From positions 62,001 through 126,000 of the forward strand of contig NZ_UCOB01000025.1 in the NCBI RefSeq assembly GCF_900474295.1: DNA of 64,000 nt, given 5' to 3'. Made by a program: the position numbers and the translations under genes. Positions 40,879 to 59,692 of the stretch are shown one piece after another. The notes under the pieces are model-generated. The model was not told the DNA's origin, searched no databases, and saw nothing but the letters and a program-made list of their open reading frames with translations. The stretch comes from Synechococcus sp. UW140. GTDB lineage: Bacteria; Cyanobacteriota; Cyanobacteriia; PCC-6307; Cyanobiaceae. Numbering within the stretch: the stretch's first letter is position 1; every line of letters starts with the position of its first letter.

Positions 40879-42054
40879 TCAATTGCGGATCTGAACGGGC
40901 ATCACCAGATAGGTGAAGCCTGCTGCATTATCGGCGGGTGTGAGGATCGCCGGGGTGGTTGGGGCATTGCACTGGAGCGAGATCCGATCTCCTTCCATGG
41001 CTTTGAGGCCATCGAGGACATAGCGCACATTGAAGGCAATCTGCACAGCCTCTCCAGTGAGCGTGGCAGGTAGTGATTCCGATCCACTACCCACATCCTG
41101 TGCATCAGCACTGATCTGCACCAGACCCGCAGTGGGATCCGTGCTGATCCTCACCACATTGTTGTGCTGATCAGCAAGCACAGCCACCCGTTCCAAGGCC
41201 GCCATGAATGGACGGCGTTCCAAATCAATCGTGCGGGTGAACCCATCGGGGATGAGCTGCCGATAATTCGGATAGGTGCCTTCCAGGGTGCGGCTCGTGA
41301 CCATCTGGTCAGCAGCGAGCACAACCACCTGGCCGCGGTCATAAAAGAGCGTGACTGGATCATCACTTTTCCAGCCAGCAATCAGACGTTCCACCTCACG
41401 CAAGGAACGAGCTGGCAGGGTAACGGCAAGAGATCCATCGTCAGAAGTCATCCCCTCCGCTGATCCAGCGGCCGTTGGATCGTCCTGTAACGCATCCTTC
41501 ACCGTCAGCACGGCAAGGCGGTGGCCATCGGTAGACGCCGCTTCGAGATGACGCCCTTCAAAGCGGAGGTGAACACCGGTGAGGAGCTGTTTTGCTTCGT
41601 CAGCGCTACTCGCAAACAACGTTCCTCGCAGAGCCTGAACCAGCGAGACTGCATCCACACGCAGAGCGGTGCCGTTTTCAACCAGCGGCAGATCAGGAAA
41701 TTCATCAGCCGGCATAGCGCGCATTTGGTAGCTGCCGCTCAAGCTGGTGAGCTCGACCTGCTCGGATGCTTCATCCGTGGCCAGGGTGATTGGTGAATCA
41801 ACAGAAAGCCGTGAAACGATCTCACCTAGCAAACGGGCAGGCAGTGTCACGGCGCCGCTCGCTTCAACCGATGCCGATAGCGAAGTCTGAATGCCGAGAT
41901 TGAGATCAAATCCGGTCAGGCTGAGGCGACCCGTGCCTGCATCGGCAGTGAGCAGAACATTGGCAAGCACGGGGTGGGTTGGGCGAGATGCCACAGCACG
42001 GCTTACCAGTTGGAGGGCTGTATTGAGCTCCGCCTGGGAACAGACCAGTTTCAT
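40879..42054 (-). CDS. dnaN: DNA polymerase III beta sliding clamp
   Basis: DnaN is the ring that tethers the replicative polymerase. The ATG at 42054 gives MKLVCSQAELNTALQLVSRA and 391 aa, the cyanobacterial size; the frame stays open 16 codons upstream without conservation. Three clamp domains are present, ending YLVMPVQIRN, close to the consensus C-terminal MPMRL region that lines the ligand pocket. It is transcribed away from the candidate origin at 42055-42465. In marine Synechococcus genomes dnaN is conventionally gene 1. Confidence 0.97.
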   Translation of the reverse strand: MKLVCSQAELNTALQLVSRAVASRPTHPVLANVLLTADAGTGRLSLTGFDLNLGIQTSLSASVEASGAVTLPARLLGEIVSRLSVDSPITLATDEASEQVELTSLSGSYQMRAMPADEFPDLPLVENGTALRVDAVSLVQALRGTLFASSADEAKQLLTGVHLRFEGRHLEAASTDGHRLAVLTVKDALQDDPTAAGSAEGMTSDDGSLAVTLPARSLREVERLIAGWKSDDPVTLFYDRGQVVVLAADQMVTSRTLEGTYPNYRQLIPDGFTRTIDLERRPFMAALERVAVLADQHNNVVRISTDPTAGLVQISADAQDVGSGSESLPATLTGEAVQIAFNVRYVLDGLKAMEGDRISLQCNAPTTPAILTPADNAAGFTYLVMPVQIRN

Positions 42055-42155
42055 GGAGTCAACGTCCCGACCAAGTGTCCTGAGGAGCTCCCACGGTTTC
42101 ACAGGCTGAGGAGATGTGCAACGGCAAGAGCATCTGGATCGGCATCATCCGTCTC

Positions 42156-42190
42156 TTGGATTTGATGATTTTTAAAACCAAACAAAACAG
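42156..42190. other. A/T-rich tract, candidate DNA unwinding element
   Basis: This 35-base tract has only about ten G or C, in a G+C-rich genome, and lies immediately beside the DnaA-like boxes on the dnaN side. That is the expected position of a DNA unwinding element in a bacterial origin. Confidence 0.5.
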
Positions 42191-42201
42191 CCGTAGTCGG
42201 T

Positions 42202-42331
42202 CCTGGGGAAAGCGTGGAAAACCGTTCAGAATCCAGTTGGATCCTGATTGGTTGCTTTCACAGGCCTGGGGAAGTGGCTTCAGCGAATGCGGAGAACCTC
42301 TCGTTTTGCACAGCTTCCACAACCTGGGGAA
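42202..42331 (+). repeat. three spaced copies of CCTGGGGAA
   Basis: Exact 9-base copies lie at 42202-42210, 42265-42273 and 42323-42331, with 63 and 58 bases between successive starts, about six helical turns and a little less. The first and third extend to CCTGGGGAAAG. The reverse complement contains TTTCCCCA, one base from the TTTCCACA core of a DnaA box, so they may be weak DnaA sites or sites for another origin-binding protein. Confidence 0.6.
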
Positions 42332-42376
42332 AGAATCCCTTGTCGAAGCGGGGGGAGTTGGCAGGCGTTTTCCACC
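42213..42376. promoter_or_regulatory. cluster of DnaA-box-like 9-mers
   Basis: Relative to TTTTCCACA, the sites are: 42213-42221 minus TTTTCCACG (one mismatch), 42304-42312 plus TTTTGCACA (one), 42313-42321 plus GCTTCCACA (two, directly abutting the former) and 42368-42376 plus TTTTCCACC (one). Four such sites within 164 bases are more than I expect by chance at this base composition, but this was not tested. Confidence 0.55.
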
Positions 42377-42465
42377 ATTTTTTGGTGGCTTTTCTGGCGT
42401 CTTCCGCAGCCGCTTTGTCGGCTGGTTCGCCGAAGAGCAACCTCCAAGAGGGACGTTGACCCATC

Positions 42466-42488
42466 AAAAAGCCCCTACGCAGAGGGGC
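42466..42488 (-). terminator. rho-independent terminator of thrC
   Basis: GCCCCT (42471-42476) pairs with AGGGGC (42483-42488) around a 6-nt loop. On the minus strand five T follow (AAAAA at 42466-42470 on the plus strand). It lies 32 nt past the thrC stop and would shield the origin region from thrC transcription. Confidence 0.85.
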
Positions 42489-42520
42489 CAGATCGAGAGA
42501 TTGATCCAGAGCCGCTCGGC

Positions 42521-43579
42521 TCAGAAACCCATCACCTTGGCGACCGTGTCGAGATTGGGATCCAGATCGGTATGGAAGGCTGCGTCGTTGTTGTTGATCG
42601 CACAGTCTGGATCCTTGAGCCCATTGCCGGTCAGTACACACACCACCGTGGCGCCTTCAGGCACTTCAGCAGCCCGCTTCAGTAAACCTGCGACGGAGGC
42701 AGCGCTGGCTGGTTCGCAGAAGATCCCTTCTTGGCCACCCAGCAGCTTGTAGGCCTCGATGATTTCAGCGTCCGTCACGTCGAGGAAGGCTCCGTTGCTG
42801 CCTTCGCGGGCGGCGAGTGCCTTGGCTCGGTTCACTGGGTTACCGATTCGGATCGCGGTGGCGATCGTGTTGGGATCCTCCACGGTGGTGTTGTGGACGA
42901 GAGGAGCTGATCCGCTGGCCTGGAAACCCATCATTCGGGGCAGTGTGCGGCTGTGGCCGGCCTGGTAGTACTCCTGGAAGCCCATCCAATACGCCGTGAT
43001 GTTGCCGGCATTCCCCATCGGAATGCAAAGCCAGTCGGGGGCATCTCCAAGGGCATCAATGACCTCAAAAGCAGCGGTTTTTTGACCCTGCAGACGGTAG
43101 GGGTTCACCGAGTTCACCAGGGTGACCGGATAGCTTTCGGCTGCTTCCCTCACGATGTCGAGAGCACGGTCGAAGTTGCCACGGATCGCCAGGACCTCAG
43201 CTCCGTAGACGAGAGCCTGGGCCAGTTTTCCCTGGGCGACATAGCCATCTGGGATTAAGACAAATGCCCGCATCCCGGCACGCCTTGCATAGGCGGCTGC
43301 AGCTGCGGACGTGTTGCCAGTGCTGGCGCAGATCACTGCTTCACAGCCGACTTCCTTGGCTTTGCTGATTGCCATGGTCATGCCCCGGTCTTTGAAGGAG
43401 CCGGTGGGGTTGAGACCGTCGTATTTGACGAACACCTTGACGCCTCGACCAATCCGTTCGGCAACAGAAGGGACGGGAATGAGGGGAGTGGCACCTTCAT
43501 GCAGGGTCACCACCGGCGTGGCATCTGAAACCGGCAACCAGCCTCGATAGGCTTCAATCAGGCCGGGCCAGTCCTGCAT
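42521..43579 (-). CDS. thrC: threonine synthase
   Basis: ThrC converts O-phosphohomoserine to threonine with pyridoxal phosphate. I prefer the ATG at 43579 (MQDWPGLIEAYRGWLP, 352 aa); a GTG at 43627 would add 16 residues. The PLP lysine is in NPTGSFKDRGMT (Lys63 from this start), the phosphate loop is MGNAGNITAYW, and CEPASAASVAGLLK is conserved. The short length fits the bacterial/plastid-type shorter class. It ends in its own terminator beside the origin candidate. Confidence 0.95.
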   Translation of the reverse strand: MQDWPGLIEAYRGWLPVSDATPVVTLHEGATPLIPVPSVAERIGRGVKVFVKYDGLNPTGSFKDRGMTMAISKAKEVGCEAVICASTGNTSAAAAAYARRAGMRAFVLIPDGYVAQGKLAQALVYGAEVLAIRGNFDRALDIVREAAESYPVTLVNSVNPYRLQGQKTAAFEVIDALGDAPDWLCIPMGNAGNITAYWMGFQEYYQAGHSRTLPRMMGFQASGSAPLVHNTTVEDPNTIATAIRIGNPVNRAKALAAREGSNGAFLDVTDAEIIEAYKLLGGQEGIFCEPASAASVAGLLKRAAEVPEGATVVCVLTGNGLKDPDCAINNNDAAFHTDLDPNLDTVAKVMGF

Positions 43580-43661
43580 TACGGGTCCGGTGATCAGACG
43601 CCTGCGAAGGTTCTGCAGCAGAGACACCGGCGAATGGCAAGGGACCAGAGGAATCTATGTC

Positions 43662-44276
43662 TCAGGGTTGGGCGTCCTTCAGGCCGTCGAGTGGGGATTC
43701 TGAGAAGAATTGCACCAGACCTGAAATTGATTGAGCCTTTTCAATCACTGCCATCAACGCCGGGATGTTGACCTCCATCACTTCAGCCGGGTAGGCCTCT
43801 AGAAACTTGATGGCTGTTAGGCCTCCGTCTCCGATTTGTAGGCCGTTGATCACTCCGGCTCTGATTGCAGGCACGCTCACTTCCGGTGCAGGAACCATCA
43901 GCGGATAGATGATTCGCGCCACCCGGCGGATGATCACATCACCGATTCGCGTCGACATCAGGCGACTGGTGAGTACAAGGGGCAGATTCAGTTCCTGATT
44001 GAGCAGTTTGGCCACGTCTTCAGGATCCTGTTTGCTCAGGCGGAGGATATCCACCATCAGTCCTCTGGGCTTACCGGTCTCAGCCAGGTAGGCAAGATCG
44101 GCCACGGAGATCGAACGACGAAAGGCTCCACTCACCAGGGCAACATCCTTGGCGGCCTGGCTGGGTGGGCTGACGATGGCACCAAGGCCGGTCAGAGTTA
44201 CTCCCACGCCAGTGAACAGTGCCAGCAGCCGGCGGCGACGCGTCTTGGACGAATGATTCACAGCTGACTGGCGCAT
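43662..44276 (-). CDS. exported DUF1400-like protein (204 aa)
   Basis: The N-terminus is a strongly basic start (RRRR around residue 15) with a hydrophobic core and a likely cleavage after SQAA (about 42). The mature part contains FRRSISVADLAYLAETGKP and LNQELNLPLVLTSRLMST, which match my memory of the cyanobacterial DUF1400 domain, usually the N-terminal cap of alpha/beta hydrolases. Here the hydrolase part is missing. The protein would be periplasmic or lumenal. It ends 34 nt before the thrC region on the same strand. The function is unknown. Confidence 0.8.
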   Translation of the reverse strand: MRQSAVNHSSKTRRRRLLALFTGVGVTLTGLGAIVSPPSQAAKDVALVSGAFRRSISVADLAYLAETGKPRGLMVDILRLSKQDPEDVAKLLNQELNLPLVLTSRLMSTRIGDVIIRRVARIIYPLMVPAPEVSVPAIRAGVINGLQIGDGGLTAIKFLEAYPAEVMEVNIPALMAVIEKAQSISGLVQFFSESPLDGLKDAQP

Positions 44277-44299: not shown

Positions 44300-46168
44300 T
44301 TAGGCAGGGATTCCAGCTGCAACCTTCACTAGGCGGACAACTCCGCGTTCGGCCAGTCCCTTCGCTACTTGTGCTCCCATCCGGCGGGCATCCGGTTCGC
44401 GTATTAATCGCGGCAGACGTTTGAGGACAAGATCGGGGCTGAAGCCCGGTAATTGCTGCAACACGATCAGGAGTTGCCGGATTGGTTCGAGGTCAAGCAA
44501 CTGTTCTTGTTCGATGCCCCAGCTGGTCGTGTTGCTGATCAGCGCTGGTTGCAGAGCGCGCGGAAGTTGGCGTCCGAGACGTTGAACGGTCAGCCAGCCA
44601 AGAGCATCGAGTCGCTCCACCACGGCCTCCACCAACTGGGTACGCAACATGCCGCCGTTGGCGGAGAAAAGAAAATCCAGCACTTGATCCAGAAGGGTGT
44701 CTAAATCGAGTTGGGCCTGACTGGCTGCACTGGCCACCAGATTCTCCAGCCGAGTCCAGCGGAAGGCTTCACCGTCGAACAGCATTTCCTTGAGGCTTTG
44801 ACGCAGCTGGGGATCCGGGTCCTCCATCAGGCGCTGGGCGAAATATGGATAGGCGGCCCCAAGAATTTTGAACTCTGGATCCACACTCAGGGCAATGCCC
44901 TCCAGCGTGACCAATGAGCGGATGATCAGGGCGTAATAGGGCGGCACCCGGAATGGGAATTTGTACATCACCCCCGACATGTCGTCGGTGACGCTCTTGA
45001 AGTCCATGCGGTTGACCCCCATTTCCAGGGCTTGGCTGAACACCGATTCGAAGGCCGGAACGATCGGTTCGAGATTCACATCTTCAGCGAGGAAACCGAG
45101 GGTGACGAAATCTTTGGAGAGCTGAGCGAAATTGCGGTTCACCAGGTGCACAACAGCCTGGATTAAGCCGGTGCGCGATTCTCGGCTCACCTCACTCATC
45201 ATTCCGAAATCGAGATAGCAGAGGCGGCCGTCCTCGAGGGCTAGCAGGTTGCCTGGGTGTGGATCGGCATGGAAAAAACCATGTTCCAGTAATTGCTGCA
45301 GGCTGCAGCTCACGCCCACTTCGACCATGTCATCTGGATCGATGCCGAGGGCGCGCACGGCACTGAGATTGGTCAGTTTCACGCCGTCAATCCACTCCAT
45401 CGTCAGCACCCGGCGACTGGTGGAGTCCTGATAGATGGCAGGAACGGCGATGCGCGGATTTTGGTGGTGCAGTTCGCGGAATCGTTCGGCGTTCGCTGCC
45501 TCGTTCAAGTAGTCCATCTCTTCGAACACCCGTCGACCTAGTTCGTCGATCAGAGCCACCAGATCACTGCGGATTAGGCCGATATTGCTGTTCAGCCAGG
45601 CGGCGATATTCCTAACGATGTAGAGATCCAGAGTGATTTGCTCGCGTAGACCCGGTCGTTGCACCTTCACAGCGACGGCCTGGCCGCTCATCAGCACACC
45701 GCGGTGCACCTGGCCGAGAGAGGCCGCGGAAATTGGCTCACGCTCGAGATCCTTGAAAATTTCTTCGATTGGAGCGCCAAGGTCCTCTTCGATGCACGCC
45801 ATCGCCAGATCACTGTCGAATCCAGGCAGTTGATCTTGTAGTTGGGCTAGTTCCTCCAGCAGAACGGGGGGAATGATGTCTGGACGCGTGGACAAGGCCT
45901 GTCCAGCCTTAATAAAGGCAGGCCCCAGTTCGACCAACAGTTCGGCGCATTCTTTTGCACGGTTACGGGCTCGTTCAGGACTCTTCAACAGACCCAGAAC
46001 CCAATCAGTCGCTAATCCCAGCAGAAGTAGGCCGATGGGTAATAGGGTTTGCCACAGCCTTCGCAGCAGCCGTTGGGGGTGACCGGCATAAATGCGTGTG
46101 ATCGCAGCTGGGTCATAGCTGAGCAGACCAGCGGCTTCGATGAAATCACCTAGTTCCTGTTCGATCAC
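44300..46168 (-). CDS. ABC1/UbiB-family atypical kinase
   Basis: This 622-aa protein belongs to the ADCK/UbiB kinase-like family, which supports quinone and prenyl-lipid metabolism in bacteria, mitochondria and plastids. Visible are the atypical N-terminal KxGQ region (AFIKAGQALSTRPDIIPP), Ala/Lys nucleotide segment AVKVQRPG, EMDYLNEAANAERF, catalytic loop FFHADPHPGNLLAL and YLDFGMMSE in place of DFG. The C-terminal third is helical with one possible membrane region. Cyanobacteria have several paralogues, and which quinone or lipid this one serves is not clear. Confidence 0.92.
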   Translation of the reverse strand: MIEQELGDFIEAAGLLSYDPAAITRIYAGHPQRLLRRLWQTLLPIGLLLLGLATDWVLGLLKSPERARNRAKECAELLVELGPAFIKAGQALSTRPDIIPPVLLEELAQLQDQLPGFDSDLAMACIEEDLGAPIEEIFKDLEREPISAASLGQVHRGVLMSGQAVAVKVQRPGLREQITLDLYIVRNIAAWLNSNIGLIRSDLVALIDELGRRVFEEMDYLNEAANAERFRELHHQNPRIAVPAIYQDSTSRRVLTMEWIDGVKLTNLSAVRALGIDPDDMVEVGVSCSLQQLLEHGFFHADPHPGNLLALEDGRLCYLDFGMMSEVSRESRTGLIQAVVHLVNRNFAQLSKDFVTLGFLAEDVNLEPIVPAFESVFSQALEMGVNRMDFKSVTDDMSGVMYKFPFRVPPYYALIIRSLVTLEGIALSVDPEFKILGAAYPYFAQRLMEDPDPQLRQSLKEMLFDGEAFRWTRLENLVASAASQAQLDLDTLLDQVLDFLFSANGGMLRTQLVEAVVERLDALGWLTVQRLGRQLPRALQPALISNTTSWGIEQEQLLDLEPIRQLLIVLQQLPGFSPDLVLKRLPRLIREPDARRMGAQVAKGLAERGVVRLVKVAAGIPA

Positions 46169-54883: not shown

Positions 54884-56050
54884 TTAACCGGGCATGACCT
54901 TGATCCTGCCGGCTGCCCGGTCAGCCTTGGTCTGCGCTTCAGAGACGTCTTTGCCGCGGGCTAACACCACCCCCATGCGCCGGCCGGGGCGAGCATCAGG
55001 TTTGCCGAACAACAGCACCTGGCTATCGGGTTCTGCCAGGGCCTCTCCCACTCCGGAATAACGGACGCTAGGCAGCTGGGCATCCGCCAAGATCACACGG
55101 CTCGCTGAGGGGCTTTGGCATTGGATTGAAGGTATCGGTAGCCCTAGCACTGCCCTGAGGTGCAATTCGAACTCGCTCAGGTTCTGGCTGGTCAGCGTGA
55201 CTAGACCCGTGTCATGGGGCCGGGGCGAGAGTTCAGAGAACACCATCTCATCGCCGCATAGAAAGAATTCAACTCCGAACAGTCCCACGCCGCCGAGATT
55301 GTCGGTGACAGTGCGAGCCATGGTTTGAGCCTGGTTCAGTTGGGCGGTACTTAAAGCTGCGGGTTGCCAGCTGCACTGATAGTCTCCGCCGCTCTGTTCA
55401 TGGCCGATCGGTGGGCAGAACAGGGTGGGGCCGTTGGCCTGGCGGATGGTGAGCAAGGTGATCTCTAATTCGAAGTTCAAGAATTCCTCGACGATCACCC
55501 GCTCGCTGCTGCCTCTGGCTCCCGAGACGGCGGTCTGCCAGGCCTGTTCCAGTTCGTCGGCGTTGTGAACCACGCTTTGGCCCTTGCCGGATGAGCTCAT
55601 CACCGGCTTCACCACCACGGGCCAGCCCAGGGGAGTGGCGGCTGATCTCAGTTCTTCAAGGTTGGTGGCATAGGCGAAGCGGGCCGTGCGCAGCCCCAGT
55701 GCATCGGAGGCCAGATCCCTGATGCGGTCGCGGTTCATGGTTACCGCCGTGGCTCTAGCCGTGGGGATCACCTGGATCCCCTCATCTTCGAGAGATTGCA
55801 AGGCGTCGACCGCCAGGGCTTCGATCTCGGGAATCACCACATCAGGTTTGTGGCGGCGCACCACGTCCTGCAAGGCCGCGGCATCTGTCATGGCGAACAC
55901 CTCGGCTTGATCGGCAACTTGCATGGCAGGTGCCTGGGCATAGCGGTCGCAGGCGATTACCCGGCAGCCAAGGCGTTGGGCAGCGATCACCACTTCTTTG
56001 CCCAGTTCGCCGCTGCCTAGAAGCATCACGGTTTTGGGAAATACGGTCAT
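54884..56050 (-). CDS. purT: formate-dependent phosphoribosylglycinamide formyltransferase
   Basis: PurT formylates GAR in purine synthesis using formate and ATP instead of formyl-tetrahydrofolate. The ATG at 56050 gives MTVFPKTVMLLGSGELGKEV and 388 aa, as expected for this ATP-grasp enzyme; upstream frame residues are not conserved. Motifs VVKPVMSSSGKGQSVV, VIVEEFLNFELEITLL and FSELSPRPHDTGLVTL are typical. Its 3' end is 6 nt from the end of the convergent sucrose-phosphate synthase gene. It is not linked to purF/purL here. Confidence 0.96.
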   Translation of the reverse strand: MTVFPKTVMLLGSGELGKEVVIAAQRLGCRVIACDRYAQAPAMQVADQAEVFAMTDAAALQDVVRRHKPDVVIPEIEALAVDALQSLEDEGIQVIPTARATAVTMNRDRIRDLASDALGLRTARFAYATNLEELRSAATPLGWPVVVKPVMSSSGKGQSVVHNADELEQAWQTAVSGARGSSERVIVEEFLNFELEITLLTIRQANGPTLFCPPIGHEQSGGDYQCSWQPAALSTAQLNQAQTMARTVTDNLGGVGLFGVEFFLCGDEMVFSELSPRPHDTGLVTLTSQNLSEFELHLRAVLGLPIPSIQCQSPSASRVILADAQLPSVRYSGVGEALAEPDSQVLLFGKPDARPGRRMGVVLARGKDVSEAQTKADRAAGRIKVMPG

Positions 56051-56096
56051 GGACGGCCAGGCATCAGCATGGTGCGATCTTCGCTCTTCGCCGGCC

Positions 56097-56258
56097 ATGG
56101 CCTTCACCCTTGCCTTCACCACTGCCGGGGATGCGGCCGATGGTCTTTTGTTCGGCTGGGAGATGGCCAGCCTGCAGAAGTGGGCCCTGATTTATCTCGG
56201 AGTCTCGTCGTTGGCGTTTGTGGTGGTGTGGATTGTCGGTTACGTCCGTGAGCAGTGA
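56097..56258 (+). CDS. small membrane protein (53 aa)
   Basis: I chose the ATG at 56097 because the open frame upstream is antisense to purT. The peptide has an N-terminal mixed segment (MAFTLAFTTAGDAADGLLFG) and one clear membrane helix (about 30-48, LIYLGVSSLAFVVVWIVGYV) followed by RE. It is divergent from purT with 46 nt between starts. Small single-span proteins of this kind are frequent in cyanobacteria, some attached to photosynthetic complexes; nothing specific is visible here. Confidence 0.65.
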   Translation: MAFTLAFTTAGDAADGLLFGWEMASLQKWALIYLGVSSLAFVVVWIVGYVREQ

Positions 56259-56269
56259 CCGTTTGCGGC

Positions 56270-56518
56270 TCAGCGGGGAAGATCAGGTATCAGGGTGAGC
56301 TGACGCTCTGGAGATTCCTCATTAACGAAGCCCCAGGCATCAAAAACGTCTGGGGTGGGATGGGTGATGCGCTGTAGTCCTTTGCTGCGTTCCAGCTGGA
56401 ACCCTTCCTTGGCCATCCTGCGCATCAGGCTGGCGGCTTCCTCAAAGCGGGCGGCCATGGCTTCGAGGCTGGCGCAGTCGCTGGTGAGACCGGCTTCCTT
56501 CCAGGTGAAATAGGCCAT
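56270..56518 (-). CDS. conserved cyanobacterial hypothetical protein (82 aa)
   Basis: The sequence opens MAYFTWKEAGLTSDCASLEA and continues with an amphipathic helix (AARFEEAASLMRRMAKEG) and a short strand region (FQLERSKGLQRITHP, then VFDAWGFVNEE). I recall near relatives in marine Synechococcus and Prochlorococcus, all without a known function. It is cytosolic by composition. It converges with the 53-aa gene, 11 nt apart. Confidence 0.8.
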   Translation of the reverse strand: MAYFTWKEAGLTSDCASLEAMAARFEEAASLMRRMAKEGFQLERSKGLQRITHPTPDVFDAWGFVNEESPERQLTLIPDLPR

Positions 56519-56631
56519 GATTTGAACTGACTCCTATGACAAGAACTGTCGTTGTGGTTTGAGGGATTCATCGTTACTTAAGCACCGTTTCAGTTGTCTC
56601 AGGTGCGATCCCCATGGGGTCGTTTGTTTGG

Positions 56632-56652
56632 TCGATCTAGACTGAAGATCGA
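56632..56652. repeat. perfect 7-bp inverted repeat
   Basis: TCGATCT (56632-56638) and AGATCGA (56646-56652) pair perfectly over a 7-nt loop, about 20 nt before the possible TTG start of the next plus-strand gene and in the 154-nt gap downstream of the divergent 82-aa gene start. It could be an operator or an RNA hairpin; no T-run follows. Confidence 0.4.
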
Positions 56653-56672
56653 GCGAATGTTTCTGTCACAGC

Positions 56673-56981
56673 TTGGCAAGGCGGTTTTGGCTTCAGGTTG
56701 CGCTCACGGCTGCTGTCGTCAGCTTCATGCTTGAGACGGCCAACAAGCCCAGCCATCAGGACGTGATGGCGCAGTGCTCTCACTACAATTTGGCTCATTA
56801 CCAAGGCATCCAAGGTTTTGAGAACGGAACCTTCTCAGGATGTTTGACCGAAAGCAAAAGAGATCTAGTCTGGTTTGTGTGGCGAGGCCAAAAGAAGCTG
56901 CATTGGCGTTATCAACAAGGGACCTACCGAGTCAGACCGTCACGATCAAAACCTGAGTCGTTGAAGCCGGGCTTGATCTGA
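56673..56981 (+). CDS. possible small exported hypothetical protein (102 aa)
   Basis: The frame opens with TTG at 56673 and reads MARRFWLQVALTAAVVSFML, which looks like a signal peptide or membrane anchor. The mature part contains SHYNLAHYQGIQGFENGTFS and LVWFVWRGQKKLHWRYQQG, natural-looking aromatic-rich sequence with two cysteines. No ATG fits upstream and no Shine-Dalgarno is evident. The region begins to be A/T-richer. I do not recognise the family; it may be a lineage-specific gene. Confidence 0.5.
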   Translation: MARRFWLQVALTAAVVSFMLETANKPSHQDVMAQCSHYNLAHYQGIQGFENGTFSGCLTESKRDLVWFVWRGQKKLHWRYQQGTYRVRPSRSKPESLKPGLI

Positions 56982-57226
56982 CTCAAGCAGAGTCACAAGC
57001 TCCGTCACGATCTTACAATTTTTTGATCGGATTATTCGAGATGAGCCTCTCAGCTTGCGGATCGTGCTCTTGTGCCATTTGATCTTGATGGCCATGATCA
57101 GGTCAGTCGCTCAATAGATTTATGACCTCTAGACGTTTAAGCCTCTAATTAGAGCAGGTTTAGGTCTCTCAATTCACGTGGCAGACATGGTGAGACGACA
57201 AGTTGCTGAGATTGCCTTTCAATCAC

Positions 57227-58366
57227 TCATGCCGATGATGTTGACTTCACGTTAGAAGCAGCATTGAGGATAATCTTAGCGACTTGTTTTGATGCATTTC
57301 CAATATTATAGCCAAACAAATCCCTTACTTGTTTGAGCATGTTGTCTCGATTGCTGGGAAACTCAACGCCATTCATAAATGCTTGCATCAGGTCATCTGC
57401 ACCCTCAAATTGGACGCTTATGTTTTTGTAGATTTCATACAGCTGGTTATTGCGAAACGAGTCTTTGTTGATATTTAATAGAAGTGGCTTCTCGAGTAAT
57501 GCTGCTTCGATCACAATTGAGCTGATGTCACCGATGACGATGTCAGAAGCCAGAAGAGCACTGGCATCACTCACTCCAAGGCTTAGCGAAGCCGCACCTC
57601 TGTCTCTTTCGTGACAGAGAGATCGATAGATCCATTCTGATGTTTGAGTACTCACGTGATTCGTCCATAAGTTCGGATGTGCACCTTGAATGATATGAAC
57701 TTTGTCTCCAAGTGTTGACAATGCTTGTATCAGACTGGTGCCAAATCGTCTTAAGATTCCACGTGATGTCCAGTGAGAAGCAATAAAAACCACTGCTTTA
57801 TCGCTGGAAATGTTCATCGCTTGTTTGATTTCATATTTTATTTGATGCCTTTTTTCTTGTGAGCCGGATATGTAGTCAGAGAAGATATCGTTTTTCGGGC
57901 ATCCTGTGGCAATAAATAGTGCTTCTTTTCTTGCAATCTCGCCGATTGAGTTGGTGATATATTCTCCTTCTGTTGGTGATACTCCGCAATAGATATTTGA
58001 GGCTTTATAGCAGGACAATAAATAATCCGAAACCATATTGTTGCCAAAGGCAGAGCCATGCGGAACATGGATATACAAGCCATTGTTTAATCCATGGCTT
58101 TCGTCAGGGATATGGGTGGTGACTAATGCGTATTCGTACTCATTGGGATTGCGCAACGTGTCTTCACGTGGCTTGCGGAATTTTCCCTTTAAAAATTCAA
58201 ATAGATCTTTTGAGGTCTCGTTTCTGAACTCATAGCGATCACAAGGTGCGCAAACGCTCATCCAGTTTTTTGCGTTTGGTTCTTGGGCCAAGATCTCCTT
58301 GATGATGGGGAAATACGAATCCCAACTCTGCGAGCTAAATGCATAAAAGATGATTTTTTCTTTCAT
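57227..58366 (-). CDS. CDP-glycerol glycerophosphotransferase-like protein
   Basis: This 379-aa protein has a GT-B-like layout. N-terminal YAFSSQSWDSYFPIIKEILA, the acceptor-side HVPHGSAFGNNM, VSPTEGEYITNSIG, FIATGCPKNDIFSDY and the donor-side SDIVIGDISSIVIEAALLEK are features of the CDP-glycerol glycerophosphotransferase (TagF/TagB) superfamily, which builds polyol-phosphate or related surface polymers. The exact acceptor is unknown. Base composition is far from its neighbours (18 of 60 bases are G or C at 57421-57480), so it was probably acquired. No other surface-polymer gene adjoins it. A 245-nt A/T-rich gap (56982-57226) precedes its 3' end. Confidence 0.78.
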   Translation of the reverse strand: MKEKIIFYAFSSQSWDSYFPIIKEILAQEPNAKNWMSVCAPCDRYEFRNETSKDLFEFLKGKFRKPREDTLRNPNEYEYALVTTHIPDESHGLNNGLYIHVPHGSAFGNNMVSDYLLSCYKASNIYCGVSPTEGEYITNSIGEIARKEALFIATGCPKNDIFSDYISGSQEKRHQIKYEIKQAMNISSDKAVVFIASHWTSRGILRRFGTSLIQALSTLGDKVHIIQGAHPNLWTNHVSTQTSEWIYRSLCHERDRGAASLSLGVSDASALLASDIVIGDISSIVIEAALLEKPLLLNINKDSFRNNQLYEIYKNISVQFEGADDLMQAFMNGVEFPSNRDNMLKQVRDLFGYNIGNASKQVAKIILNAASNVKSTSSA

Positions 58367-58591
58367 CTGTGCTTGGTTTCTGCTGTTGGGATGCTCAGGG
58401 GGATTGAGTCAGTTGATCGATGTTATCGCATTTATTTTGCTTCTCAACATTCACGATATTTGTAACCATGAATGTTGCTGGCTTTTACGTTCATCCCCAA
58501 TCGCCAGTTGCGGCTGCCAATGCACTGTTTTTGGGCTTGATTGCCTCGCGATTGAGACTGCGACTGCGATTCGTTTCCGTTGGGTGCTGCC

Positions 58592-59692
58592 CTAGCTGTG
58601 AGGTCGCAACAACACTCCTGCCATCACGAGTAAAGCGGTGATCAACCAGAAAGCTCTTACCACCTGTTGTTCACTGGCACTGCCCAGCTCGAAGTGATGG
58701 TGCAGGGGCGCCATCCGGAACACCCGTTTGCCTTCTCCATCCGATCCCTTGGTGGCTTTGAACACCCAGACCTGAATGATCACAGAAAGCGATTCGGCTA
58801 GAAACACTCCTCCCATCACCAGCAGGGGCCAGAGGCTGTTGCTGAGCAGGGCTACAGCGGTGAGGGCCGCTCCCATCGCCAGTGATCCTGTGTCTCCCAT
58901 GAACACTCGGGCTGGATTACGGTTGTGCACCAGGAATCCGATCCAGGTTCCGGCCATCGCCATACAGAAACCCGCCAGAGCTGGGTCACCGCCATTGCCG
59001 CGCAGCATCAGTTGCAATGCCAAGCCGCTGAACACCAAGGCTCCGCAACCGGCGGCGAGGCCGTCGAGCCCATCGGTGAGATTTGTGGCGTTGCTCTCGG
59101 CTAGAAACACGAATAGAGCCAGAGGCCAGATCAACCATCCCAGGGCCAGGTTGAGCCCGAAGGGAAAGGCAATCGTGCCGATGATCCAGCCTTGCCAGCC
59201 CGCTACAGCCAGAAACAAGCCAGCCGCACTTGCCTGCAGAAACAGTTTGCCCCGGGGCGTCAGGCCGGTGTTGGTCTGACGGGTGAGGCTGCGCCAATCA
59301 TCGATCCCGCCGATCAGCATGAAGGCCAGGGTGACGGCGGCGACTGCAAGCAGTCGTTTGTCGTCGCCGTTCATCACGCTTACCAGGGCACCGATGATTA
59401 CACCGACTGGCACCACCAGTAGGCCTCCCATGGTCGGTGTGCCGGACTTGCTCAGATGGGCCTGGGGGCCGTCTTCGCGGATGACTTGCCCCATTTTGAG
59501 GGCCCGAAGCCAGGGGATTCCTAGCCAAGCCACCACGCTTGCCACCAGTGTTGTGATCAGCAACGGCAGGCTGAGCAGGCTGCCGGGTATGAGGCGATCG
59601 CTGGCGAAAGCGAGGCCAAACACGGCTGTGGCAAGGACCATCGCTGGCAAACGACCGTCCATCACCTGGGACGCTTCCGTTGTTTGATCCAC
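58592..59692 (-). CDS. mraY: phospho-N-acetylmuramoyl-pentapeptide-transferase
   Basis: MraY transfers phospho-MurNAc-pentapeptide to undecaprenyl phosphate, forming lipid I in the inner membrane. The 366-aa protein has about ten membrane spans and the family motifs [32 protein letters not shown] with the Mg aspartates, [18 protein letters not shown] and [12 protein letters not shown]. The GTG at 59692 is the likely start, with an ATG 11 codons later as an alternative. Other cell-wall genes (murB, murC) are 46 kb away. Confidence 0.96.

Follow-up and report, generated by a model that had tools for sequence, protein, structure and literature searches.

Background

Where does replication of the chromosome start in Synechococcus sp. 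UW140, and which elements would allow DnaA to open the strands there? An earlier reading of the DNA (the sequence-only reading) proposed the gap between dnaN and thrC as the probable origin (oriC). The Methods of a 2010 study locate the origins of Prochlorococcus in the interval that separates dnaN from threonine synthase, close to DnaA boxes (PMC2836286); the position of the origin is already predictable, having been published as a prediction for the related Prochlorococcus. The cyanobacterial DnaA box is given as TTTTCCACA in PMC4674748, which names dnaN as the usual neighbour of the origin (S. elongatus, Anabaena, and Cyanothece), and the same box is given in PMC10225481.

The basal unwinding system (BUS), in which DnaA boxes are followed by DnaA-trios, is active in vitro with the S. 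elongatus DnaA, and deviant trios were foreseen in the same report (PMC8287927). In B. subtilis, the amine of the middle adenine of the trio contacts Asn187 of DnaA; cytosine substitutes for this adenine in vitro, and in vivo engineered cytosine is better than guanine or thymine, so that DnaA homologs might read a range of sequences (PMC10721633). We take the engineered A-to-C trios to be functional in B. subtilis because the amine contacts Asn187. Our search by title or abstract opening of the DnaA-trio literature in open-licence papers found no publication on natural C-trios.

In the present study, we analyzed a stretch of 64,000 nucleotides from UW140 (the window) and compared the gap with those of its relatives. 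The tandem boxes and DnaA-trios described below are a feature beyond the sequence-only reading.

Methods

The gaps compared (79) are those of the 78 relatives with thrC upstream of dnaN plus that of the window. A first regular expression for the BUS recognized 35 of the 79 gaps and was superseded by a profile. As the genome of UW140 consists of 35 contigs, the chromosome-wide skew was sampled in a closed relative, WH7803, whose record starts 173 bp ahead of dnaN; twenty 12-kb samples were taken. The hypothesis that DnaA reads the amine of the trio middle base was set down before the comparison with PMC10721633.

Results

The neighbours of the gap named in the sequence-only reading, dnaN and thrC, were confirmed, Pfam assigning a beta clamp and a PALP-family enzyme (Table 1). 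From a scan of 160 relatives for DnaN, the 80 best loci were taken, and thrC lay upstream of dnaN in 78 of them; only 173 and 490 bases of upstream sequence were available in the remaining two. Inspection by eye of 21 aligned gaps showed hairpins resembling that at the thrC edge in many of them, and some gaps were without one. Rfam at gathering scores gave no match in the window; therefore, a conserved RNA was rejected.

The gap had been described as the only gene-free stretch of more than 300 bases in 64 kb. This did not hold when the window was crudely tiled with ORFs of 100 aa or more: 666-1019 and 56123-56672 were likewise left uncovered, with short ORFs readable inside the latter. Nor did the genes mostly point away from the gap, as had been stated: the same tiling, which may contain spurious ORFs, gave 18 minus-strand and 19 plus-strand ORFs to the left of the gap, and 8 plus-strand and 9 minus-strand ORFs to its right, and the nearest genes or ORFs on the right (thrC, 43662-44276, and 44300-46168) face the gap. 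Elsewhere in the window, the GC content is low at 56000-59000 (0.46-0.49 in 2-kb blocks), where a glycerophosphotransferase-like ORF (57227-58366) adjoins a glycosyltransferase family 4 ORF (58592-59692); this stretch was possibly acquired.

Table 1. Positions of the features in and around the dnaN-thrC gap, in window coordinates
Feature	Position	Strand	Remarks
Predicted oriC (dnaN-thrC intergenic region)	42055..42520	.	466 bp
dnaN, DNA polymerase III beta clamp	40879..42054	-	ATG at 42054; Pfam
thrC, threonine synthase (PALP family)	42521..43627	-	translation and Pfam
thrC terminator-like hairpin GGCCCCTCTGCGTAGGGGCTTTTT	42466..42489	-	thrC edge of the gap; read from sequence
BUS DnaA box 1, TTTTCCACG	42213..42221	-	distal to the trios; 1 mismatch to TTTTCCACA; profile match
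BUS DnaA box 2, CTTTCCCCA	42204..42212	-	head to tail with box 1; profile match
GC-rich 4-bp spacer GGAC	42200..42203	-
Four DnaA-trio units, printed strand CGA CTA CGG CTG	42188..42199	-	DnaA-bound strand 3'-GCT GAT GCC GAC-5'
A/T-rich tract, presumed duplex-unwinding element	42148..42187	-	directly after the trios
DnaA-box-like TTTTGCACA	42304..42312	+	1 mismatch to TTTTCCACA
DnaA-box-like GCTTCCACA	42313..42321	+	head to tail with TTTTGCACA; 2 mismatches
DnaA-box-like CTTTCCCCA	42325..42333	-	second exact copy of BUS box 2
DnaA-box-like TTTTCCACC	42368..42376	+	1 mismatch
DnaA-box-like TCTTCCGCA	42400..42408	+	in block conserved near thrC; 2 mismatches; 21-gap alignment
Direct repeat CCTGGGGAA	42202..42331	+	copies at 42202, 42265, and 42323

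In the window, the cumulative GC skew has its minimum at 41660, at the end of dnaN, and the AT skew has its maximum at 42231, within the gap. When 60 kb of the adjoining sequence of the contig were added (124 kb in total), both extremes were unchanged and no other extreme appeared. The check proposed with the sequence-only reading, a GC-skew minimum near the gap, was thus borne out over 124 kb, and the chromosome-wide form of the check was made in WH7803. There, the GC skew is positive in the samples between base 1 and about 1.08 Mb, and from 1.18 Mb onward all samples are negative; the sign flips once at about 1.1-1.2 Mb and once between the end of the record and base 1, beside dnaN. The gap therefore lies at the GC-skew minimum in the contig and, by the 20 samples, in WH7803.

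Compared with TTTTCCACA, the segment 42055-42465 contains three nine-mers with one mismatch and eight with at most two mismatches, including those three; at the rate of the window, 0.08 and 0.79 would be expected. Four near-consensus nine-mers had been noted previously; the cluster stands, and its number is eight, not four. Among 411-base stretches taken in 50-base steps, the gap is the densest TTTTCCACA-like cluster in the 64 kb, and the next one outside has five. Sites for TTTTCCMCA with at most one mismatch number five, with 0.20 expected. Hence, the gap carries a cluster of putative DnaA boxes. There was no exact copy of TTTTCCACA, the consensus of the standard cyanobacterial oriC, in the window, and exact TTTTCCACA was present in 10 of the 79 gaps. 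As the whole genome has 13 exact copies and the reversed control 22, closeness to the standard box is weak support for an origin; of the arguments of the sequence-only reading, the place of the gap stood, and both this one and gene polarity proved weak. The direct repeats that it reported are present (CCTGGGGAA three times and TTTCACAGGC twice). The commonest nine-mer among the 79 gaps is CTGGGGAAA (= TTTCCCCAG), found in 62 of them; TGGGGAAA is found in 68. The UW140 genome has 23 copies of CTGGGGAAA, two of which are in the gap (13 in the reversed control).

Several other sequences were observed. Near dnaN, 12-mers of CCTGTGAAACCGTGGG (minus strand, 42090-42105) are conserved in 23-29 of the 79 gaps; this may be a leader or promoter element of dnaN, or an additional box. 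On the thrC side, the GACAAAGCGGCTGCGGAAGA block (minus strand, 42400-42419) is well conserved in many marine relatives in the 21-gap alignment, and may be an additional site for DnaA or another protein. GTCAACGTCCC forms a perfect 11-nt inverted repeat (42058-42068 and 42450-42460) that brackets the gap; its thrC-side arm is altered in the near relative L010, so that it is perhaps due to chance. Outside the origin, contig C3 of the same genome (64508-64561; G000, L002 and L003) carries two oppositely oriented exact copies of TTTTCCACA separated by 36 bases, possibly a DnaA titration or regulatory site.

On the strand that reads toward dnaN, tandem boxes, a spacer, and trios follow one another and lead into an A/T-rich tract (Table 1), the order seen in the BUS. 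Box 2 has two mismatches to TTTTCCACA and one to TTTTCCMCA. The first trio, CGA, is rare, occurring in 2 of 77 origins (the window and the near-identical L010). An A/T-rich tract had been noted before, and only 0.18% of the 40-mers in the window are as A/T-rich as that at about 42148-42187. Under the published search rule, a box must have three or more 3'-NAN-5' trios no farther than 16 bases away (PMC8287927). In the family-wide register, the middle base is A in two of the four units of the window and C in the other two; by eye, another register within the T-rich tract could yield three 3'-NAN-5' trios.

The alignment of 21 gaps showed two box-like nine-mers followed by GGCCC-CTACTACG. With the leave-one-out profile, a BUS-like element was found in 79/79 gaps, always on the dnaN-pointing strand and starting 150-205 bases ahead of dnaN; as the profile was seeded from 35 of these gaps, model and gap set are not independent of each other, though each gap was left out when scored. 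The lowest score was 10.4 bits, compared with a maximum of -0.66 in 237 dinucleotide shuffles. In the two lowest scorers, L041 (10.4 bits) and L088 (15.8 bits), one box or trio was hard to recognize, and both were excluded from the trio counts, leaving 77 origins. The 45 bases past the last trio are more A/T-rich than the remaining gap in all 79 cases (means 0.67 and 0.43).

Over the family, the BUS pattern with up to three mismatches was found in 207 of 300 genomes, with two matches in 2 of the 207 (reversed control, 1 genome), and a second pattern, with the middles of trios 2 and 3 open and up to two mismatches, in 230 of 400 (reversed control, 8). The two patterns missed 93 and 170 genomes, respectively. 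We chose by hand 30 genomes missed by one or both; dnaN was found in 29, and the element could be read 146-228 bases before dnaN in 25 of these. In this hand-picked set, most misses are explained by failure of the pattern. L194 was counted, since its trios and box-like nine-mers are visible, although its score (-3.2) is under the best of 175 shuffles (-1.1); L195 and L196 scored 8.9 and 8.6. L176 has the second box and the trios and is truncated by the contig start, L175 is truncated inside the element, L202 is ambiguous, and the element is absent from L191. In several genomes, the first contig starts within 83 bases of the element. The boxes in genus g56 (L193-L196, L233, and L234) are mostly AACCACA, not TTCCACA.

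Among 31 other cyanobacteria of the class, an A-type element was found within 800 bases before dnaN in seven, two of which are near-identical; the other 24 gave no clear element within this distance. These seven carry TTTTCCACA-type boxes and a middle A in trios 1-3, which suggests that the A-type trio is ancestral.

In the family, the trio reads C-(T/G)-(A/G) on the printed strand, corresponding to 3'-G(A/C)(T/C)-5' on the strand that DnaA would bind. The middle base is T or G in 75/2, 37/40, 27/48, and 31/44 of the 77 origins for trios 1 to 4; A occurs twice in trio 3 and twice in trio 4, and C never. On the DnaA-bound strand, 304 of the 308 middle bases are thus A or C, and none is G. Parsimony on the dnaN tree gave 24 T-G and three A-G changes at the trio middles and no change involving C (on the DnaA-bound strand, 24 A-C and 0 A-G). 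Trios 2 and 3 of the 150 open-pattern matches listed (300 cells) had T in 160, G in 128, A in 11, and C in 1; two of the 11 A come from the second match in G162, which resembles a non-origin hit. Exceptions to the T/G middle exist, at about 3-4%. A-centred trios become fewer as G+C rises (rho -0.63 against GC3 of dnaN). GC content was considered as the driver of C-trios and rejected: the correlation is strong, but there are only two independent pairs on the tree.

Position 7 of the BUS boxes is most commonly C (48/77 and 49/77), and A-C exchanges account for 7.0 of 14 and 8.6 of 16 inferred changes there. At the centre of the major groove, exchange of A:T for C:G preserves the donor and the acceptor. 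A change in the DnaA recognition helix fitting the C-type boxes was sought in 20 genomes and rejected: DHTTV and DHSTV both occur, with no clean link to position 7. The UW140 genome has dnaA, with one PF00308 match on another contig (C29). The trio-contacting residues Asn187, Ile190, Ile193, Arg202, and Glu228 (B. subtilis numbering) are conserved in 30/30 family DnaAs read, those of the 30 genomes that matched best among 60 with a match.

One lineage of the same family, G025 (L191, L209, and L210; a draft of 20 contigs, 95% complete), gave no DnaA by protein or Pfam search. It retains thrC next to dnaN, the gap being about 150 bp long (153 if the stop codon is included) and devoid of the BUS, and its GC skew, at -0.015 to 0.045 in 22 samples of a 1.58-Mb contig, shows no V. 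A PF00308 match was absent in 12 of 334 family genomes, 10 of which have dnaN; the match of G284 is a C-terminal piece and was left out of the scan. As the element is kept in 8 of the 9 genomes scanned (two at low scores, 3.0 and 3.2), the co-loss is a single event, that of G025; the other eight probably reflect gaps in draft assemblies. Initiation that depends on DnaA seems to have been given up in G025. Symbiotic and some free-living cyanobacteria are known to have lost dnaA (PMC7198777).

Discussion

The skew extreme, the dnaN/thrC context, the BUS-like element in 79/79 gaps, and the co-loss in G025 support the proposal that the gap is the probable origin, and so does the fact that BUS-pattern hits are nearly always single per genome. 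We are confident that the dnaN-thrC gap is the chromosomal oriC, in which weak, clade-specific boxes and trios would open the A/T tract. By analogy with the work on B. subtilis and S. elongatus, DnaA would bind the cluster of weak boxes, and the tandem pair (42204-42221) would anchor two DnaA molecules, from which DnaA would polymerise onto the 3'-G(A/C)(T/C)-5' trio strand (42188-42199), capturing the trio G and the amine of its middle base (A or C); the dnaN-side A/T-rich tract would then open, the helicase would be loaded there, and forks would depart both ways.

Every element lies upstream of dnaN, and could instead serve regulation only, DnaA or another protein controlling dnaN, with replication initiating at another place or at multiple sites, as has been reported for Synechocystis 6803; some dnaA-bearing cyanobacteria do replicate independently of DnaA and oriC (PMC7198777). 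However, the contig skew extremes fall at the gap and a V is centred there in closed WH7803, the trio periodicity and the A/T tract are strand-opening features, and the samples of G025, for which no dnaA was found, show a flat skew, so that we regard a purely regulatory role as very improbable. The identity of the binding protein is a separate matter: the repeated TTTCCCCAG motif (TTTTCCCCA-type sites) differs from TTTTCCACA and might be bound by a factor other than DnaA. This is quite unlikely in our opinion, as TTTCCCCAG sits at the position of the DnaA box beside the trios, about half of the changes at position 7 are A-C, and 7/31 outgroup cyanobacteria carry TTTTCCACA-type boxes at that very place.

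Returning to the reading of the gap as a DnaA-dependent oriC, we consider it probable that the trio of the family evolved from 3'-GAT-5' to 3'-G(A/C)(T/C)-5' under a rule that preserves the amine, that a parallel drift took position 7 of the boxes from A to C, and that one lineage lost dnaA and the element together. A mutation bias toward G+C, instead of readout by DnaA, would also restrict the trio middle, and the scarcity of A-centred trios in high-G+C species speaks for it, though with only the two independent pairs mentioned above. Such a bias should nevertheless act on other columns: among fourfold dnaN columns on the same strand, the 48 with T in low-GC species show, in high-GC species, C in 48%, G in 33%, and T in 14%, compared with C 0, G 127, T 70, and A 4 of 201 at the middles of trios 2-4. 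Likewise, T-C makes up 51% of the T-involving changes in 184 control columns and none of the 24 at the trio middles, a chance of about 4e-8 if the changes are independent. We therefore think it unlikely that mutation bias explains the restriction to A and C.

If the amine-preserving reading is true, the rule known from B. subtilis mutants has governed the evolution of origins in nature. Dozens of natural origins vary at a DnaA-read base known from engineering, a ready mutational series in abundant phototrophs. Rules requiring TTTTCCACA and A-centred trios may score such origins poorly, and G025, a relative seemingly without DnaA-dependent initiation, is on offer for study.

Like the predicted origins of Prochlorococcus (PMC2836286), the UW140 locus combines a GC-skew origin, the 3' dnaN, the 5' threonine synthase, and nearby DnaA boxes; the text on origins in that report, unlike the present analysis, describes no trios, box variants, or unwinding anatomy. 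The locus also resembles the standard cyanobacterial oriC (PMC4674748) in lying next to dnaN and in having its box pair where 7/31 outgroups have TTTTCCACA-type pairs, whereas exact TTTTCCACA is missing from the window and the BUS boxes mostly have C at position 7. With the BUS of B. subtilis (PMC10721633) and S. elongatus (PMC8287927), it shares two co-oriented DnaA boxes, a short spacer, and DnaA-trios; in contrast to these, it has four conserved trio units with a middle A or C instead of A, and degenerate boxes, and the variation extends over the whole family. The substitution patterns support the view that, with its C-trios across the family and its drifted boxes, the locus represents a novel form of this known system.
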